From: Erysipelotrichales bacterium
GTDB lineage: Bacteria; Bacillota_I; Bacilli_A; Erysipelotrichales; Erysipelotrichaceae
Assembly (NCBI GenBank): GCA_910576345.1
Contig: CAJTIT010000008.1
Span: 1 to 64,000, forward strand
Length of the DNA stretch: 64,000 bases
Reading direction: 5' to 3'
Position numbers and translations under genes: made by a program. Positions 230 to 44,744 of the stretch are shown piece after piece; position 1 is the stretch's first letter, and the number at the start of each line of letters is the position of its first letter. Below the pieces are notes generated by a model that worked only from the letters and a program-made list of their open reading frames with translations, searched no databases and had not been told where the DNA came from.

Positions 230-1027
230 TTATTTTGTTTCTGTATTTTCTTTTTGCTTATACACCATGTATCCGACACCGCCAATAAATGCGACGACGA
301 TGATTCCAAGGATGGAATACACAAGTGTGTTATTTTGGGATCCGGCAAAACCATAAGCTCCCGTTTCACTGTTATATTGGATCGGTTTTTTGCCAAATGC
401 ATTTGAGATAGCATCCGTTTTTTCCTTAGAGGTATCCGCAAGCGCACTGTCTTTCACATTTGTGCCACCATTCCCATCAATGCCATCATTGATTGAACCG
501 TTATTAACATCAGGATTGCTTGGCTGATTATCATCCGGTTGATTGGCATCTTCCAATTCGAATGTAAAATCATTGGTTTTGTCATTTACAATTTCTTTGG
601 CACTTCTTGTTTCGTAATCCATATTGGTAACCGACATCTGATTCATTTCTACATTGAAATTTGCTTCAGGAGCCTGTGATGTTACCTTAATTACACCAAT
701 CGTAATATTTCCATCTTTATCGGCAAGATTCTTTGTTACATCACCTGTTGCGATAAAGAAGCGAATCGTTTTGGTTGCTTCATCATACGTATACTCTTTC
801 ACATATTCAGGAGCCAAAGATTCATCCCATTCAATCGTATCCAACGTTACTTCACCGCTCAGTTTCATTGTCGTATCCAAAGCGCCTACATAACCATCGT
901 CTGCTTTTATCGTTAATTTTACTGCGCCGTTCCCGCTACTTGTACGATAGAGGGTAGCCGCAGAAGCACCCATTGTACAAGCAAAGAATACTCCTACAGC
1001 AATCAAAGCCACTAATAACTTTTTCAT
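230..1027 (-). CDS. Membrane-anchored cohesin-like surface protein
   Basis: Predicted 265-residue secreted protein. A signal peptide covers about residues 1-24 and ends near ASA. A beta-rich domain (about 25-155) resembles cohesin-type modules. Next comes an Asn/Asp/Pro-rich linker (about 155-200), then a C-terminal TM helix (about 235-257) with a short Lys-rich tail, so the domain is displayed on the outer face of the membrane. No LPXTG motif is visible. It starts two bases after the stop of the M60 protease gene, with a GGGTGAG ribosome site inside the end of that gene, so the two are cotranscribed. Because the protease carries a dockerin-like module, this protein is a reasonable candidate for its cell-surface receptor. 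The cohesin assignment rests on general pattern and context only and needs a profile search; an unrelated Ig-like fold is the alternative. Confidence 0.6.
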   Translation of the reverse strand: MKKLLVALIAVGVFFACTMGASAATLYRTSSGNGAVKLTIKADDGYVGALDTTMKLSGEVTLDTIEWDESLAPEYVKEYTYDEATKTIRFFIATGDVTKNLADKDGNITIGVIKVTSQAPEANFNVEMNQMSVTNMDYETRSAKEIVNDKTNDFTFELEDANQPDDNQPSNPDVNNGSINDGIDGNGGTNVKDSALADTSKEKTDAISNAFGKKPIQYNSETGAYGFAGSQNNTLVYSILGIIVVAFIGGVGYMVYKQKENTETK

Positions 1028-1029
1028 AT

Positions 1030-4000
1030 TTACTCACCCTTTGTACTATCAACTATATCCATACCTGGCAATGCATCATATGCCGGTAGATTGCTTACAG
1101 ACAGAGAAGTACTTGTCAGTCGCTGACCTTCGTTTGTTTCAGCATCATTGACACGATACAATTCTGCTCGCACACTCTTACCTTGCATGCTTGCGTATTG
1201 TTCAGGAGTGACCACATAGAACCAAATACCGCTTGCGATTTCAGCAACGCCTCCTTCGCTGTTCAACTGTGCAAACAAGAAGTTTTCACCTTCATAGAAT
1301 ACATCACTGTCGTTTGCGTCAACAAGCAACATTACATTGAATGCAGGATGTCCACGGTAATCACCTTTGAACACAACGGAACCTGCCGGTATTGTTTGTT
1401 CTTCATTGTTAGAATCCATATATTTATATGGCGCATTCAGTTTTCCAATCGTACTGTTGGACATATCAACATTGTCTCCAGGAGGAGCGATAACATCGAT
1501 TTCTGCTCCACTGATTCCATCATTTCCGACTGCTTCTATTTTTACATAGCTCATATCTGCATATGTCCACAGTTGATTGCCGCCGGTTGTACCTTCTTTA
1601 TCGAAGTATACGATATCCGTGTAATCATTGGATCCGTTGGTTAAGAAGTTTCCACTCTTCGCCAGTGTCCAAGATGATCCATCTTGACTTACATAGATAT
1701 TGTATTTGGTGATCGTGTTATCCATAACTGTACTTCCATTCATGGCAGCACGATATTTCACACCTACGATATCCATTTTCGTATTCATATTGATGATCAC
1801 ATATGGGTTCGTCTTATCTTTTGCATTTTCTCTAGTGACACCGTTGAAAGCTGTATCAGTATCACCGTCAATCAGATTGTTTACCTGTAATGTGCTTGCA
1901 TCAAAATCTGGATTTTCATGATCGATTGTTTCATTTTCTGCGAGGAAATTAGATGTGATTGTAAAGTTGTCTTTATTGACACTTCCATCATGAGAAAGTT
2001 TTACTTCATCCAATTTTACTGTCGCAGTCGCATTCAAATATTTGTCATAAGCTGTTACTTCGTATACCAACGCACGGTTGTTCATGGAACCAATTGCATC
2101 AACGAATTCATTTTCCATCGTAAATCCGATAACTTCTCCATTGCGCTTGATTTCATATCCTAAGATTGCATCCGCATTCGCGTTTCCATTCACTCCCAAT
2201 GTGATTGTGAAACGTTTTGTTTGATTGTCAGCACTAGACAATACTGCATTTACGGTCGTACCTTCGGACATTCTTGCGCCATTTTTCAAACGATAGCGTC
2301 TTGCATCATCGTTCAAGTACCAAATCTTACGTTCTTCTTTGGCAAGGCCTTTTTCTTTCAAGGTTGCTTTTACTTGATCGGTAATCACGATACCCCATTT
2401 TTCAAAGTGCTCGCTCAAATCTTTTTCTGCTGCCATTGACGCATAAACAACGAGCATTTCATCAGAAGAATATCCTGCAAAGTTTTCCCTTCTCATCAAT
2501 CGGTTCATCTTCGCATAAATAGAATTTGTATCTGTCGCTGTTGCAGTATCGTCATATGCCAAGTGCAGCTGCCAATACATTGCCAATGTTGTAAATACAT
2601 CTGTACTTTTACCGATTGTATTGGAAGTTACTTTTTTATAAATCTTAGATTCATATCTTGGTTCGATTCGAGCCGCAGCTTTATCATCACATGTTTGCGC
2701 CAACAATGCAAAGATATTATTAGTTACTTCGGCATATGCTGTTTTTCCTTGATTGATCTGGTGACCAATTTCATGACTAATTCCCCAACCGAAGAATCCG
2801 GTTGTTTTCAATTCGCCATCTTCTATCGTGTTTGGTCTACCTTGCATGAGTCCTGCGACAGAACCATGTCCTACTCCAACATGATCGCCACCGGCATACA
2901 TGAACGCACCGTCAAACATACGCATTGCACGAATATTCACTCTAGAAGCAGGTGTTAAATCTTTTGGATCGTCTGCATCCGGAGATAATCCTTTGTTGTT
3001 ATAGAACAGCGTCATCATTTCTTCAAACGCAACCAAAGAATTATATAGACGATCGACTTGAGCATCCAATGTACCGGCACCTGTCGCAATACCTGCATAT
3101 GCATTTGTTGCGCCAACTGAGAACAACGCATTTCTTGACATGATTTCTGTCGTATTCAAAACGCTTGTAGATGGATCAAAAGTCAGACCTTCATCCGTAT
3201 ACATTTGTTGCAAACTATCCTTGTATGTTGTTAACTCAGTAATATATGCACGAATCTTTGCTTTTATCTCAGCTTCATCCGTAATTCCTGTAATGTTCAA
3301 ATAAGGAATTTTCGTTCCGCCGCTGACACGAACTTTAATTTGTCCGCTCTCTTTTGCATTAGGATAACGTACATATACGGATCCACCATGTTCTATATCT
3401 AAAGAACCGATCTGTGGTGCAGTAAGAACGTTCAATCCTTTTTTCAAATTTGTCACACTTTGTTTCCATACATTGGCTTCTGCATAGAACTGCGTAAATA
3501 CAACTTGCGGCATCACTGTTCCGGTACTACCAACATATACGTTAATTGTTTCACCGGCTTTTACTGAAACTCCAAGAGGTTGTAGATCACTTAAACTTGA
3601 GAATCCCAAGTGACCATTTCTGGACGTCGTGATTTTCTGATCAACAACGATAACATCTTGAATTGCTGTATCATTTAAAATCTGTCTAGCGTATTCAATA
3701 TCTCTTAACATTGCGTCACGATATGGATGATACTCGTCACTTCTCGTATCTTTCGTATTCACGCGATCTTCCAACGCTTTAATGCTTGCCTCGTTAACAC
3801 CATCTTGCAATTCTACATGTAAATCATCTTTAAACAATGCAGAAACATCATCTTGTAATGAATTATATTCATAGAATTTGATTTCTCTAACTGCATTATC
3901 CCCGCCATTTACCGAATTTGCCAAACAAATTTGAATTTTGTTTGTATGAACAGGTTTGCTTAACTGCAGTTTATAATAAGGCTGTTTGTTTGGACTCATC

Positions 4001-6354
4001 AATTTCTGCAGACTTTCTGAAGAATAAGGTCCGCTGTATGGAGATACTGCCTGCATAGTTCCATTTTCATCCCAATAATAAACTTTTGCATACGTAAATC
4101 CTGCATTTCCTTCTTTTGGAACCAAGAACATGTAATCAATATCATAGAAATCATCGAATTCAATGATTGGACCAGCTTTACCTCCTGTGTTGAATCCACC
4201 AGTATCCCAAGTATCTGCCAACCAATAACTTTCATAATTGTTGTCGACCAGTGCAAATTCTCCGCCAACATTATTTCCGGCTTTCAATGTAACAGATTTG
4301 ATATGCTCTGTTTTTTCACCTTCTGTTGGCCAGTTGATCAAACCGTAATTATAGGTATCCGGCATAACATAATTCATTGTCGTTCCTTTTACATGAATGG
4401 ATGCTTTACCTTCACCAAGATCATTGTTTCCGGTCACGTATACTTCATATTCTTTTTCGACTTCCAAATCAGTCAAACGATATGAGGTTCCATCAATTTT
4501 TTCTATTTTAGTATATTGCTGATTTCCGACTTTTCGATAATAGATATTATAAGTCAGCGTATCTTTCATATCTTTCCAGCCGATATTGAATCCGGCGTAA
4601 ACAGGATTCAATGTCACCATATCCGGTGCTGGCGGCAGACGAGTTGGTTTAGGCTCAAATTTGATTGGATCGGAATATGGGCTTCTCCATTCTCCGTTAA
4701 CGGCTCTTACGCTTGCCTGATAAGTGGTGTAATTATCCAACCCGGCAAATTCATAAGTCGTATAGGTCGTTTGAAGAATTTCATTTTCAATGATCTGTCC
4801 ATCTTTTGAGAACGTCTGCAACAAAATCTCAAACCCTGTAACATTTGGCATATCATTGTATGTCAATGTTGCAGATTCATTTCCTTCTACTACGTTCAAA
4901 TTCTTAGGCACTTCAATTACAGGCACCGGTACTTCTTCATATACGTTATTCAAGAATTCCACTTCTGCAATTTCTGCCAAGTTCTTTCCGGCAGATTTTA
5001 CGATTTTGATTGTTACTTTCTTTACGGCAATCTGTCCGCCAAGATCAATCACGATCGTATCCTCACTGGCTTTGTCTGTGAAGTAGTGAATGGATTTTGC
5101 ACGGCTCAAGCCGGCTTGCACCTGCGTTACTTTTCCATTTTCGTCTTCAACTTCCACAATCATTTCTTCTGGCTGATTGTCTAAACCTGTTTCTACACGA
5201 ATCTGACTCATGGTAAATGCTTTTTCCATGCTCATTGTCAATATTGCAGGATTTGTCTGTGAAATGTCTTCGCTTTCCTTTGCAGGTTTGATACCGACTT
5301 TTCCTTCTTCCTTGAACAGATTTACCGCATCTCCATCTAAGATTGCTTCCACTTTCATGGCTGCGCTGTCAATCATGGAACTTGTGTCATACATACTCAC
5401 ATCTTGTTTTGCACCATTTAAAGTCGTTGCAATGATTGCCACATCCGCAATGTCGATTTTACCATCACGGTTCAAATCGAATTTGGCAAGACTTGCGGCA
5501 TCACTTTTATCGACGTTTGCAATCAGTTGATCAACGTCTGCACCATTTACCGTGCCGTCCATGTTCACATCTCCGACTTCAAACAACCCTTTCTCGTTTG
5601 AAATCGCTACACGTTTTGCGTAGTCATCCAGCTCGATATTGTCAACCGTATATGTTTTATACGCATTACCGGATAATACCGCGCCGTATGTTCCTTTCTT
5701 CAGATTGTAAAGTGTAACTGCATAGTATCGTACTTTTCCACCGTCTACACCATTAAGCACTTCACCTGTCTGATCCATTTTTCGTATGGATACTTCGCCT
5801 GTTTGATCACCAAGCTTATAATCCATTCGCTTCATTTCTGTGATACCGTTAAAGTCAATTTTCTGTGTATTTCCTTTATCGTCGTTCACTTCCAAAGCGA
5901 TGTTTGGATTGGCAATGTTGCTGATCGGTAAAATAAACTTAACATCAATTTCTAAATTACCGGTTGCTTCAAGGCCGTCCAACAGATAAGTATCGGGTGT
6001 CAATTCATCTTGGCTATTTTTGCCCTCAGGTTGTGTCCCCTGTCCATCGACATTTTGAGGTTCATCAACAGTATTGGCACCATTTGAGTTTTCTTCTGTT
6101 GGAGTGGACACAGGCTGATCTACAGCATCTTTGTCCGGTTGTGAGGTTTCATCTTCTTGTGTTCCCTCAGTGTTTGTTGTTTTCAAATTCCCTCCATCAT
6201 TTTCATTATTTGGAGTTTCTTCGTTTTCCATTGTTTCATCATTGCCTTGTGCAGACATAGTTCCGCCAAAAGATCCCATCGCCATAAAAATCGATGATAT
6301 TGCGAAACTGATTACGAATGTGAAGGCAAGAAACAATTTCAACCAACGTTTCAT
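1030..6354 (-). CDS. Secreted M60-family (enhancin/mucinase-type) metalloprotease with dockerin-like, FN3 and discoidin modules
   Basis: About 1774 residues. N-terminal signal peptide (1-35) then a Thr/Glu/Asn-rich low-complexity stretch (about 35-120). A dockerin-like pair of EF-type loops sits near residues 260-315 (DVNMDGTVNGADV, then DLNRDGKIDIADV). Discoidin-type beta regions follow (about 330-460 and 690-850), with two fibronectin-III-like domains (about 475-660) between them. The zinc protease core shows HEIGH near residue 1193, the HExxH signature of M60-like peptidases, which cleave mucin-type glycoproteins. A discoidin/CBM32-like domain lies at about 1490-1640. The start is the ATG at 6354: AAAGGAG lies 9 bases upstream, while the in-frame TTG six bases earlier is too close to it. 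First gene of the operon; the downstream gene encodes a possible cohesin partner. Likely acts on host mucus (family knowledge). Substrate is unknown. Confidence 0.9.
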   Translation of the reverse strand: MKRWLKLFLAFTFVISFAISSIFMAMGSFGGTMSAQGNDETMENEETPNNENDGGNLKTTNTEGTQEDETSQPDKDAVDQPVSTPTEENSNGANTVDEPQNVDGQGTQPEGKNSQDELTPDTYLLDGLEATGNLEIDVKFILPISNIANPNIALEVNDDKGNTQKIDFNGITEMKRMDYKLGDQTGEVSIRKMDQTGEVLNGVDGGKVRYYAVTLYNLKKGTYGAVLSGNAYKTYTVDNIELDDYAKRVAISNEKGLFEVGDVNMDGTVNGADVDQLIANVDKSDAASLAKFDLNRDGKIDIADVAIIATTLNGAKQDVSMYDTSSMIDSAAMKVEAILDGDAVNLFKEEGKVGIKPAKESEDISQTNPAILTMSMEKAFTMSQIRVETGLDNQPEEMIVEVEDENGKVTQVQAGLSRAKSIHYFTDKASEDTIVIDLGGQIAVKKVTIKIVKSAGKNLAEIAEVEFLNNVYEEVPVPVIEVPKNLNVVEGNESATLTYNDMPNVTGFEILLQTFSKDGQIIENEILQTTYTTYEFAGLDNYTTYQASVRAVNGEWRSPYSDPIKFEPKPTRLPPAPDMVTLNPVYAGFNIGWKDMKDTLTYNIYYRKVGNQQYTKIEKIDGTSYRLTDLEVEKEYEVYVTGNNDLGEGKASIHVKGTTMNYVMPDTYNYGLINWPTEGEKTEHIKSVTLKAGNNVGGEFALVDNNYESYWLADTWDTGGFNTGGKAGPIIEFDDFYDIDYMFLVPKEGNAGFTYAKVYYWDENGTMQAVSPYSGPYSSESLQKLMSPNKQPYYKLQLSKPVHTNKIQICLANSVNGGDNAVREIKFYEYNSLQDDVSALFKDDLHVELQDGVNEASIKALEDRVNTKDTRSDEYHPYRDAMLRDIEYARQILNDTAIQDVIVVDQKITTSRNGHLGFSSLSDLQPLGVSVKAGETINVYVGSTGTVMPQVVFTQFYAEANVWKQSVTNLKKGLNVLTAPQIGSLDIEHGGSVYVRYPNAKESGQIKVRVSGGTKIPYLNITGITDEAEIKAKIRAYITELTTYKDSLQQMYTDEGLTFDPSTSVLNTTEIMSRNALFSVGATNAYAGIATGAGTLDAQVDRLYNSLVAFEEMMTLFYNNKGLSPDADDPKDLTPASRVNIRAMRMFDGAFMYAGGDHVGVGHGSVAGLMQGRPNTIEDGELKTTGFFGWGISHEIGHQINQGKTAYAEVTNNIFALLAQTCDDKAAARIEPRYESKIYKKVTSNTIGKSTDVFTTLAMYWQLHLAYDDTATATDTNSIYAKMNRLMRRENFAGYSSDEMLVVYASMAAEKDLSEHFEKWGIVITDQVKATLKEKGLAKEERKIWYLNDDARRYRLKNGARMSEGTTVNAVLSSADNQTKRFTITLGVNGNANADAILGYEIKRNGEVIGFTMENEFVDAIGSMNNRALVYEVTAYDKYLNATATVKLDEVKLSHDGSVNKDNFTITSNFLAENETIDHENPDFDASTLQVNNLIDGDTDTAFNGVTRENAKDKTNPYVIINMNTKMDIVGVKYRAAMNGSTVMDNTITKYNIYVSQDGSSWTLAKSGNFLTNGSNDYTDIVYFDKEGTTGGNQLWTYADMSYVKIEAVGNDGISGAEIDVIAPPGDNVDMSNSTIGKLNAPYKYMDSNNEEQTIPAGSVVFKGDYRGHPAFNVMLLVDANDSDVFYEGENFLFAQLNSEGGVAEIASGIWFYVVTPEQYASMQGKSVRAELYRVNDAETNEGQRLTSTSLSVSNLPAYDALPGMDIVDSTKGE

Positions 6355-6385
6355 AGTCAATTACTCCTTTCATGGTCTCATTCTT

Positions 6386-6415
6386 ATTATAATACTTCGT
6401 CTTTTTTCAAGTCAA
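6386..6415 (-). promoter_or_regulatory. Sigma-A type promoter of the M60 protease operon
   Basis: Minus strand TTGACT (6415-6410), an 18-bp spacer and TATAAT (6391-6386). It lies 32 bases upstream of the chosen ATG. The region from 6416 to 6641 beyond it shows no gene or further clear signal. Confidence 0.75.
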
Positions 6416-29230: not shown

Positions 29231-29605
29231 TTATGTATAAATGATTTCCTCGTTTACAATCTCCCTCGCACAAGCCCTTATGTTACCTAGCCGTCCTGTC
29301 CATTCTAAGGCGTTTTCTTCCTTTAGCTGTTCCGTTATGCCCTGTGCCTGTTTCATGCCCTCTATGAGCCTTTCAAAACGTTCCTGCGCCTGCCTGTCAA
29401 TATCGGCAAGGTAAGCGTTGAGCCTGCCGCTTGTGAGAAGATTTGTGTATATAACCTTACAGTACTGCTTTAGGTAGTCCAGATGCTGCCGCCCGAATAA
29501 GCCAATCGGCTGTTCTTTTTCGGGCGGTAAGGCAAGGCAGGGGATAAAGTAATCCCCCTGTCGTTCAAATTCGCCGCAAATTTTTTCAAAGATTGTTTTC
29601 TCCAT
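29231..29605 (-). CDS. TnpV-like transposon-encoded protein
   Basis: 124 residues, no known enzymatic motif. MEKTIFEKICGEFERQGDYF start, LFGRQHLDYLKQYCK middle, and the GRLGNIRACAREIVNEEIIY end are typical of TnpV of Tn4451-like elements. ATG 29605 with GGAGGTAC upstream is preferred to the earlier in-frame codons. Lies 25 bases after the recombinase gene. Another intact copy is at 34285, a broken one at 44370 and a C-terminal scrap at 42069. Role in transposition is not established. Confidence 0.8.
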   Translation of the reverse strand: MEKTIFEKICGEFERQGDYFIPCLALPPEKEQPIGLFGRQHLDYLKQYCKVIYTNLLTSGRLNAYLADIDRQAQERFERLIEGMKQAQGITEQLKEENALEWTGRLGNIRACAREIVNEEIIYT

Positions 29606-29629
29606 TATGTGTACCTCCGCTATCATATT

Positions 29630-31291
29630 TTATTTTGCCATCACTGTTTTTCGCGGGCAGTCCCTTTTTTTGCGGGGCTTCCGAGTCATCTTCGTCTTGA
29701 CAGTCTGCTCCCCTATGTAACCGCCGAAGCGGTAACAGATTTTGACGGTCTGCTGCATCCCGTCCTCTGTTTCCGTTCGGTCAGACACCTCAATCCGCTC
29801 TACTAAAAGATTAAGGTTCTCGGCGGTCAGTTCCGTTATCCCCACATACCCTGCCATCAGTTCTGCCCACTGCACTGCATTATTCTTGCTGTCCTTAACT
29901 TCCTGCAACGCATCTTCAAGCGTTGCTATCTGCCCCAATAGTTTCCCCTGTTCGGTCTGGTACTTATCAATCAATCGGGTGAAATTTTCATTGGAAATAC
30001 GCCCTGCAAGGGAATCTTCATACAGACGGTCAAACAATCTAGTCACTTCATCATTCCTCGCCTGTTTCAGTTTCGTTTCATTGTTTTTACCCCTGTTCCC
30101 ATCCGCTCTGGCATTCATCTTCACCGCCAGAGCCACCGCTTTTTCCCTGTCTTCAAAGGCAAGGCGGGCATGGTGCTGAATATCGGCAAGCACGGCATTG
30201 TATAAATCCTCGTAGTAAATACGGTGGTCTGTGCAGGCTTTTGTGTTGTGGGCGTAGGTGGTGCAGACATAGATACGGTGCCTGTCCCTGCCCCAGTACC
30301 GCAGGGCAAGGGCTTTCCCGCAAGCGCCGCACTTCACAAGCCCAGAGAAAACCGACACAAAATTATTTGTCGTGTCACGCTTCCTGCTCAGGATTTTTGC
30401 GTTCGCCCCGTCAAAGATTTCCTGCGAAACCAATGGCTCGTGGGTATTGTCTGTCCGTATCCATTCTTCCTCTGGCAGCTTCTTATATTTGCCGAGTTTA
30501 AAAATGGCTTCCGTCTTGCACATCACGGAATGACCGAGATACACGGGGTTTCCTATCATGTTTCGTATGATGGTGTGCGACCATTCATACTGGTTCTGGG
30601 GGTTTTTGAACCGTTCGGGGTAATGCTTCTCCCCACGGGTATGCTGCCACCATGAGGGGCAGGGCACTTTTTCATCCCGAAAAATACTTGCTATCTTGTG
30701 CGCCCCCATGCCCGCATTTGCAAGCTCAAAAATCCGTCTTACAATCCATGCCGTCTCTCCATCGACTACCAGCTTATTATGGTTGTCAGACGATTTGCGG
30801 TATCCGAACGGCGCATAGGAGCAGCGGTAAAGCCCCGCTTTCGCCCTCGCCCGAATGGAAGAACGGATTTTCCGTGAATTGTCCCTGCTGTAAAATTCAT
30901 TCATCACGTTCTTCAGTGCGGCAATGTCGTTGTTTTTGTTGGCGGTGTCCACGCAGTCATTGACGGCGATGTACCTCATGTTTTTCATTGGGAAATAAAT
31001 CTCCGTGAAATGCCCGACCTTTAAATGGTCACGCCCCAGACGTGACAAGTCCTTTGTGATTACCACGTCAATCTTCCCCGCATCAATGTCATCCAGCATA
31101 CGGTTAAAATCTGGCCTGTCGAAATTCAAGCCGCTCCAACCGTCATCCACATAGGTTTCAACGACTAAAAACCCATGCTCCCTTGCATACTGTGCCAGCA
31201 TCGCTTTTTGCGTTTTTATGCTCTCGCTGTCCCCCTGCGCCATGTCATCTTTTGACAGCCTACAGTACAAGGCGGTTCTTAAAATACCCAT
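29630..31291 (-). CDS. Intact large serine recombinase (TnpX/TndX type)
   Basis: 553 residues. Resolvase domain (about 5-150) with catalytic Ser in YCRLSKDD (about residue 14) and the RLGRDH arginines. Recombinase domain (about 165-270), zinc ribbon (CGACGKALALRY ... KAC, about 318-352), coiled coil (about 380-470) and a C-terminal domain ending in a Lys/Arg-rich tail. It would cut and join DNA at a pair of att sites to move its element. Codon use is GC-richer than the chromosomal genes, a sign of transfer. Its own end sites are not evident to me; a palindrome lies about 25 bases upstream of the start (31315-31344). The TnpV gene follows. Confidence 0.92.
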   Translation of the reverse strand: MGILRTALYCRLSKDDMAQGDSESIKTQKAMLAQYAREHGFLVVETYVDDGWSGLNFDRPDFNRMLDDIDAGKIDVVITKDLSRLGRDHLKVGHFTEIYFPMKNMRYIAVNDCVDTANKNNDIAALKNVMNEFYSRDNSRKIRSSIRARAKAGLYRCSYAPFGYRKSSDNHNKLVVDGETAWIVRRIFELANAGMGAHKIASIFRDEKVPCPSWWQHTRGEKHYPERFKNPQNQYEWSHTIIRNMIGNPVYLGHSVMCKTEAIFKLGKYKKLPEEEWIRTDNTHEPLVSQEIFDGANAKILSRKRDTTNNFVSVFSGLVKCGACGKALALRYWGRDRHRIYVCTTYAHNTKACTDHRIYYEDLYNAVLADIQHHARLAFEDREKAVALAVKMNARADGNRGKNNETKLKQARNDEVTRLFDRLYEDSLAGRISNENFTRLIDKYQTEQGKLLGQIATLEDALQEVKDSKNNAVQWAELMAGYVGITELTAENLNLLVERIEVSDRTETEDGMQQTVKICYRFGGYIGEQTVKTKMTRKPRKKRDCPRKTVMAK

Positions 31292-34284: not shown

Positions 34285-34659
34285 CTATGTGTATATGATT
34301 TCCCTCTCTACAATCTCCCTCGCACAAGCCCTTATGTTATTGAGCCGTCCTGTCCATTCTAAGCCATTTTCTTCCTTTAAGCGTTCCGTTATGCCCTGTT
34401 CCTGTTTCATATCCTCTATGAGCCTTTCAAAGCGTTCCTGTGCCTGCCTGTCGATTTCGGCAAGGTATGTATTCAGCCTGCCGCTTGTGAGAAGGTTGGT
34501 GTATGTAACCCTGCGGTACTGCTTCAGATAGTCCAGATGCCGCTGTCCCCATGTGCCTATTGGCTGTTCTTCTTCGGCGGGTAAAGCTATACATGGAATT
34601 AAATAGTCACCTTGCCTTTCGTATTTGCCGCCCAGTTCCTCAAAAATCGTCTTTGCCAT
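34285..34659 (-). CDS. TnpV-like protein, second intact copy
   Basis: 124 residues, aligned end to end with the copy at 29231-29605 (e.g. TWGQRHLDYLKQYRRVTYTN, GRLNNIRACAREIVEREIIY). ATG 34659 is preceded by a GGGGGTAACAG region with a weak ribosome site. It is likely the outermost gene of the element; beyond it, at about 34680-34740, chromosomal sequence with the DUF4230 gene begins. Confidence 0.8.
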   Translation of the reverse strand: MAKTIFEELGGKYERQGDYLIPCIALPAEEEQPIGTWGQRHLDYLKQYRRVTYTNLLTSGRLNTYLAEIDRQAQERFERLIEDMKQEQGITERLKEENGLEWTGRLNNIRACAREIVEREIIYT

Positions 34660-44369: not shown

Positions 44370-44744
44370 CTATGAATAAATTATATCATTTTCAACAACT
44401 TCCCTTACACACGCCAAAATGTTATTCATCTTTTGAATCCATAAGGATTGGTTTTCGGATTTCAACTGTTCTGTCACGCCCTGCCTGTCGGAATATTTCG
44501 TTGCCATCCGAAAAAACATATCTACTGCCAGTGCGTCTACACTTGCAAGATATTCATTCAGCCTGCCGCTGGTAAAGAGGTTCATATATAAAACCTTATG
44601 GTTTTGTTTCAAATACTTTGCATGTCTCTGTCCCCATACGCCGATATGCTTTTCTTTTTCGGCAGGTAAGGCGAGCGCAGGCAAATAATAATCGCCAACC
44701 CTTGTATATGTCCCGCCCATCTATTCAAACAATGTCTTTTCCAT
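44370..44744 (-). pseudogene. TnpV-like protein with stop at codon 8
   Basis: ATG 44744: MEKTLFE, TAG, MGGTYTRVGDYYLPALALPA, then VWGQRHAKYLKQNHKVLYMN to ACVREVVENDIIYS. It aligns with the intact copies at 29231 and 34285 along the whole length. Translation could also restart at the ATG after the stop (44720), but no ribosome site is seen. Confidence 0.7.

Follow-up and report, generated by a model that had tools for sequence, protein, structure and literature searches.

The DNA analysed here (hereafter the window) is a stretch of 64,000 nucleotides from an Erysipelotrichales bacterium, and two adjacent genes on its minus strand encode a large metalloprotease, P0002, and a small partner protein, P0001. 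The features of this locus are as follows.

185-216, minus: possible terminator hairpin with a T-rich run, 3' of P0001 (read by eye)
230-1027, minus: partner gene P0001, 265 aa, ATG at 1027
263-328, minus: C-terminal membrane helix of P0001, residues 234-255 (hydropathy 2.24)
329-535, minus: Asp/Asn/Gly-rich linker of P0001 (from the sequence; its length varies among species)
536-958, minus: predicted cohesin-fold domain of P0001, residues 24-164 (AlphaFold2, Foldseek)
1030-6354, minus: protease gene P0002 (M60 metalloprotease), reading frame open from TTG 6360
1591-1887, minus: F5/8 type C (CBM32-like) domain of P0002 (Pfam PF00754, 40.6 bits)
2392-2928, minus: peptidase M60 catalytic domain of P0002 (Pfam PF13402, 57 bits)
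4657-4908, minus: fibronectin type III domain of P0002, the better of two stretches (Pfam PF00041)
5416-5574, minus: dockerin of P0002, residues 263-315 (Pfam Dockerin_1, 26.4 bits, cut-off 22.9)
5593-5964, minus: predicted X-module-like beta domain of P0002, about residues 133-256 (AlphaFold2 and Foldseek, sequence profile)
6244-6354, minus: signal peptide region of P0002 (hydropathy, N-terminal peak 2.29)
6386-6415, minus: candidate promoter of the two-gene operon (TTGACT, 18 nt, TATAAT; 11/12 in a consensus scan)

The ATG at 6354 is the likely start of P0002 and agrees with the start of the sister proteins; residues are numbered here from the TTG at 6360. The protease comprises, in order, a signal peptide, an Ig-like domain, a dockerin, two fibronectin type III stretches, the M60 domain and the F5/8 domain, and its only membrane segment is the signal peptide (hydropathy maximum elsewhere, 1.30). 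The HEXXH motif of M60 peptidases is present as HEIGH (residues 1196-1200, positions 2761-2775). P0001 consists of a signal peptide, a beta domain of approximately 140 residues, the linker, and a membrane helix that is followed by a short lysine-bearing tail (to 233). The first-pass annotation had read at this locus a large M60 protease with two dockerin-type EF loops and, two bases downstream, a gene for a small anchored protein, and all of these readings hold: the ATG of P0001 lies two bases past the stop codon of P0002, and both loops are present within the single dockerin. NTGD-like motifs precede the helix in some relatives of P0001. A sortase (LPXTG) anchor for P0001 was rejected, as the motif is absent and the anchor model stays below its cut-off.

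The candidate promoter lies directly upstream of P0002 and is the top site of the region, in a consensus scan whose total number of matches is not above that of shuffled sequences. The minus-strand hairpin at 185-216 is absent from the scan list, in which the same inverted repeat appears on the plus strand only.

In PDB sequence searches, the catalytic domain gave its best matches with M60 glycopeptidase structures (e.g., 5kdj, E 5e-39), among them entries named ZmpC and ZmpA glycopeptidase. The latter belong to a group that has been described as mucinases (PMC9325726). From this similarity to solved M60 glycopeptidases, we infer that the catalytic domain of P0002 probably cleaves O-glycosylated (mucin-type) proteins.

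Predicted folds of the two proteins

The Dockerin_1 module of P0002 (residues 263-315) contains both EF loops, DVNMDGTVNGAD and DLNRDGKIDIAD, and both are complete. With two F-hand calcium loops and a score above the cut-off, it is a type I dockerin (PF00404); a reading of the loops as two dockerins was rejected, since one module holds them both. Dockerin_1 was also matched in all 14 of the P0002 homologues that were scanned. As a separate observation, the dockerins of G007 and G008 (loci L041 and L042) are devoid of the first calcium loop, with the second loop and the partner gene kept, and they possibly mark an intermediate stage in the loss of the dockerin or a mode of binding through a single loop.

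Residues 119-336 of P0002 were modelled with AlphaFold2 from 14 homologues (pLDDT 78.7). The best 10 Foldseek matches of this segment are either type II X-dockerin chains themselves or scaffoldins that include such a chain, and the dockerin of Clostridium perfringens 2ozn is also among its fold matches. Independently, a sequence profile built from this alignment gave 4wi0_B and 4u3s_B as best matches (E 6e-10), spanning both the X-module and the dockerin. Several homologues show PEGA or CarboxypepD_reg matches at the X-module-like domain, in agreement with a published description in which the X-module resembles an Ig-like module found in carboxypeptidase D (PMC5141474). Predicted fold and sequence profile thus both place an X-module next to the dockerin and support the reading of this segment as an X-module/dockerin dyad.

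The beta domain of P0001 gave no cohesin call by sequence in Pfam, NCBIfam or a PDB sequence search. The Pfam cohesin model PF00963 matched neither P0001 nor any of the 18 family members scanned, and hhalign of the beta-domain profile against cohesins from elsewhere in the phylum reached a probability of only 10.6%. The AlphaFold2 model of the domain, built from an alignment of 18 relatives (identity down to 11-20%), has a pLDDT of 88.7 and a pTM of 0.82, and it is the only confident one of five (88.7 versus 72-76). When this model was compared with the PDB by Foldseek, 49 of the top 50 matches were cohesins (probability 1.00, E from 1e-5), the nearest being C. perfringens 2jh2, with moderate TM-scores against cohesins of about 0.5-0.63. 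Structure prediction establishes a cohesin jelly-roll fold for this domain, and P0001 is accordingly placed, by its predicted fold, as a cohesin beyond the reach of the PF00963 profile. The cohesin-like domain proposed in the first-pass annotation therefore stands by predicted fold and finds no match in searches with cohesin-family HMMs or in a PDB sequence search; membership of a different family, which that annotation had named as one outcome that would overturn it, is not what the fold indicates.

Jelly-roll topology is common to cohesins and some carbohydrate-binding modules. The beta domain could thus be a module that binds carbohydrate or mucin and happens to be shaped like a cohesin, in a co-expressed adhesin that makes no contact with P0002, and the silence of sequence methods on a cohesin is in keeping with this. 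We nevertheless consider such an adhesin quite unlikely, as the top 50 PDB fold matches that include the 49 cohesins include no carbohydrate-binding module, and as the partner gene lies beside dockerin-bearing M60 genes and is absent at other M60 loci.

Eight PDB complexes are common to the two fold searches (4u3s, 4wi0, 2b59, 4fl4, 5g5d, 3kcp, 5k39, and 5m0y), and in these the P0001 domain resembles the cohesin chain and the P0002 segment resembles the X-dockerin chain. By analogy, and hence indirectly, the shared complexes favour an interface between P0001 and P0002.

Conservation, co-inheritance and anchoring of the pair

Within the order, 20 M60 genes occur in 19 of 316 genomes; all belong to the P0002 subfamily, and the genomes and loci with M60 genes are the same ones that match P0002. 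The downstream side is readable at 19 loci, and at each of these the gene that follows on the same strand encodes a secreted beta-domain protein; the twentieth locus (G204) is interrupted by contig ends and was left out of this count. At L043, protease and partner are separated by a short protease remnant that is out of frame. When 247 genomes of the class were searched with the beta-domain profile, two further clear cases emerged, G384 and G616, which belong to the same family outside the order and in which the beta-domain gene directly follows a dockerin-bearing M60 gene. The pair is therefore found at 21 of 21 loci (19 in the order and two outside). At 17 M60 loci elsewhere in the phylum, neither the X-dockerin segment nor the partner was matched by profile, although the loci share descent and 21 versus 0 does not count independent events. 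Since the adjacency recurs at every readable locus in the order and at two outside it, it is more than chance. Two scans of genome contigs returned sister species only, and weak profile matches in the order were mostly unrelated proteins, with L027 as a true divergent partner. At L043 (G087) and L050 (G311, contig C221), the partner gene is intact but the protease gene is split into two or three open frames, which reflects either assembly error or decay.

It is conceivable, though unlikely, that the dockerin of P0002 binds another cohesin, such as the module of a GH31 protein, and that P0001 has a different role. The same genome does encode a GH31 protein (P0005) with a sub-threshold cohesin (19.4 bits) that adjoins a dockerin, and in C. 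perfringens pairwise enzyme complexes are formed via single cohesins (PMC12997984). However, this alternative leaves the strict adjacency, the co-inheritance and the cohesin fold of P0001 unexplained, and the profile of the P0001 domain matches nothing in the genome other than P0001 itself.

The gene trees bear on co-inheritance. In both, the sequences of the window and of four sister species cluster with those of G384 and G616 (support 97/97 for the partner and 100 for the protease), and G084 and G087, which belong to the same genus as the window, are placed among the remaining members of the order. Monophyly of the genus is rejected by the protease tree (p 9e-44) and is disfavoured by the partner tree without formal rejection (p 0.066). 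Since both trees join the lineage of the window to G384 and G616, the simplest reading seems to be that the two genes were exchanged as a unit.

By hydropathy, none of the 21 dockerin-bearing M60 proteases has a C-terminal membrane helix. Such a helix with a positive tail is found in 17 of the 21 partners, P0001 included, so that the cohesin, called by fold, sits on a cell-anchored protein in these cases. Of the proteins at the 17 remaining M60 loci, at least nine have an anchor of their own (at least five a C-terminal helix and four a lipobox). Given anchors in other M60 proteins and none in those that bear dockerins, anchoring in cis and anchoring via a dockerin look like alternatives. Anchoring through a partner is not universal, as four partners of one clade (G307, G311 twice, and G313) have no helix.

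The helix-free clade, whose partners carry InlB-type repeats, is compatible with a further explanation, in which P0001 serves specifically to chaperone, inhibit or activate P0002 and surface retention is incidental. We regard this as very improbable: the 17 helix-bearing partners stand against proteases that have no such helix, and the presumed binding segment is a dockerin widely separated in the sequence from the catalytic domain.

Probable surface display and known cohesin/dockerin systems

We consider it probable that P0002 is held on the cell by P0001 through an X-dockerin/cohesin contact, as a one-to-one surface-display unit. In this mechanism, P0002 would be secreted without a built-in anchor, and the X-module/dockerin dyad near its N-terminus would bind the cohesin-fold domain of P0001, presumably in a calcium-dependent manner. 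The membrane-anchored P0001 would then hold the protease at the cell surface on a flexible linker. The attachment would work like a type II cohesin/X-dockerin contact with one enzyme, one anchor and no scaffoldin, and cleavage of mucin-type proteins by P0002 would release peptides and glycans at the cell. The term mini-mucinosome, used in the first-pass annotation, is too strong a name for one enzyme and one anchor with a putative mucin activity.

Type II cohesin/X-dockerin contacts are known from Clostridium thermocellum ScaA/CipB and Acetivibrio cellulolyticus ScaA (2b59, 5g5d, 4u3s, and 4wi0; PMC5141474). As in those cellulosome complexes, the X-module/dockerin is on the soluble side, the cohesin fold is cell-bound and the role is one of attachment. 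However, the dyad there lies at the end of a scaffoldin, whereas here it lies near the N-terminus of an enzyme, and the cohesin of P0001 is single, encoded next door, held by a membrane helix and outside the cohesin HMM. The single non-cellulosomal cohesins and dockerins of the C. perfringens glycosidases NagJ/NagH (2ozn, 2jh2) offer another parallel and occur in mucin-active enzymes, although they join enzyme to enzyme, whereas the present two-gene operon would join an enzyme to a non-catalytic anchor. The Limousia mucinolysome shares the mucin context, dockerin-bearing peptidases and an anchored cohesin protein, which in Limousia is wall-anchored (PMC12997984). Limousia has multi-cohesin scaffoldins and many dockerin enzymes, whereas the genome of the window, a draft of 185 contigs that is 99.9% complete, yielded three dockerin proteins and no multi-cohesin scaffoldin, its one sub-threshold cohesin being that of the GH31 protein.

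M60 proteases are among the main candidates for cleaving the protein core of gut mucus. P0002 resembles the surveyed M60-like/PF13402 peptidases, such as C. perfringens ZmpA/B/C, in its HEXXH domain, its CBM32-type and fibronectin type III modules and its origin in host-associated bacteria (PMC3267712). In that survey, dockerins were recorded in 2 of 415 proteins and cohesins were unmentioned, the legend of a figure notes Clostridium and Bacillus proteins with no evident anchor, and the cell attachment of Gram-positive M60 proteases has been an open point (PMC3267712). Compared with those peptidases, P0001 would offer an anchor in trans for one subfamily, and the pair gives a testable answer to the question of attachment there. 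Searches confined to the open literature, and so excluding subscription papers, returned no account of such a protease/anchor pair. The cohesin/dockerin principle is known; what appears to be new, on the predicted folds, is a one-to-one anchor pair that combines an X-dockerin with an HMM-invisible cohesin and reduces the principle to a single enzyme with a single anchor. The pair points to a divergent family of cohesins overlooked by profiles, so that cohesins are probably undercounted in gut genomes, and the modules of P0001 and P0002 could serve as an orthogonal binding pair.

Other loci of the wider pattern and the window

It is an evenly balanced question whether gut Bacillota generally display secreted enzymes in this way, by means of a cohesin family missed by HMMs and scaffoldin-free operons of one enzyme and one anchor. 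The M60 pair would be one case, and another, in the same genomes, would be a wall-hydrolase-like dockerin protein followed by a membrane-anchored cohesin of its own type. A pair in G384 supports such a wider pattern: at L090:3249-6792 (contig C13), an SH3 protein with a C-terminal dockerin is followed by a membrane protein whose N-terminal domain is a Pfam cohesin (31 bits). A related locus in the genome of the window, L018:6458-9866 (contig C13), encodes a secreted glucosaminidase with a strong C-terminal dockerin (60 bits), followed by a second secreted product in which a cadherin-like domain is combined with a membrane helix at the C-terminus. It is possible that these two genes form a second pair.

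The GH31 protein of the same genome (L017:8072-14980, contig C3) is 2302 aa long, with a weak dockerin directly before the sub-threshold cohesin; it also has several FIVAR domains and, at the C-terminus, a sorting signal of the PNTGD type. Finally, we note three short related frames in the window (29231-29626, 34285-34659, and 44370-44720) that, by their letters only, resemble TnpV-type transposon proteins. The first of these is adjoined by a recombinase-like frame (29630-31291), and the TnpV-like frames are likely the remains of mobile elements.
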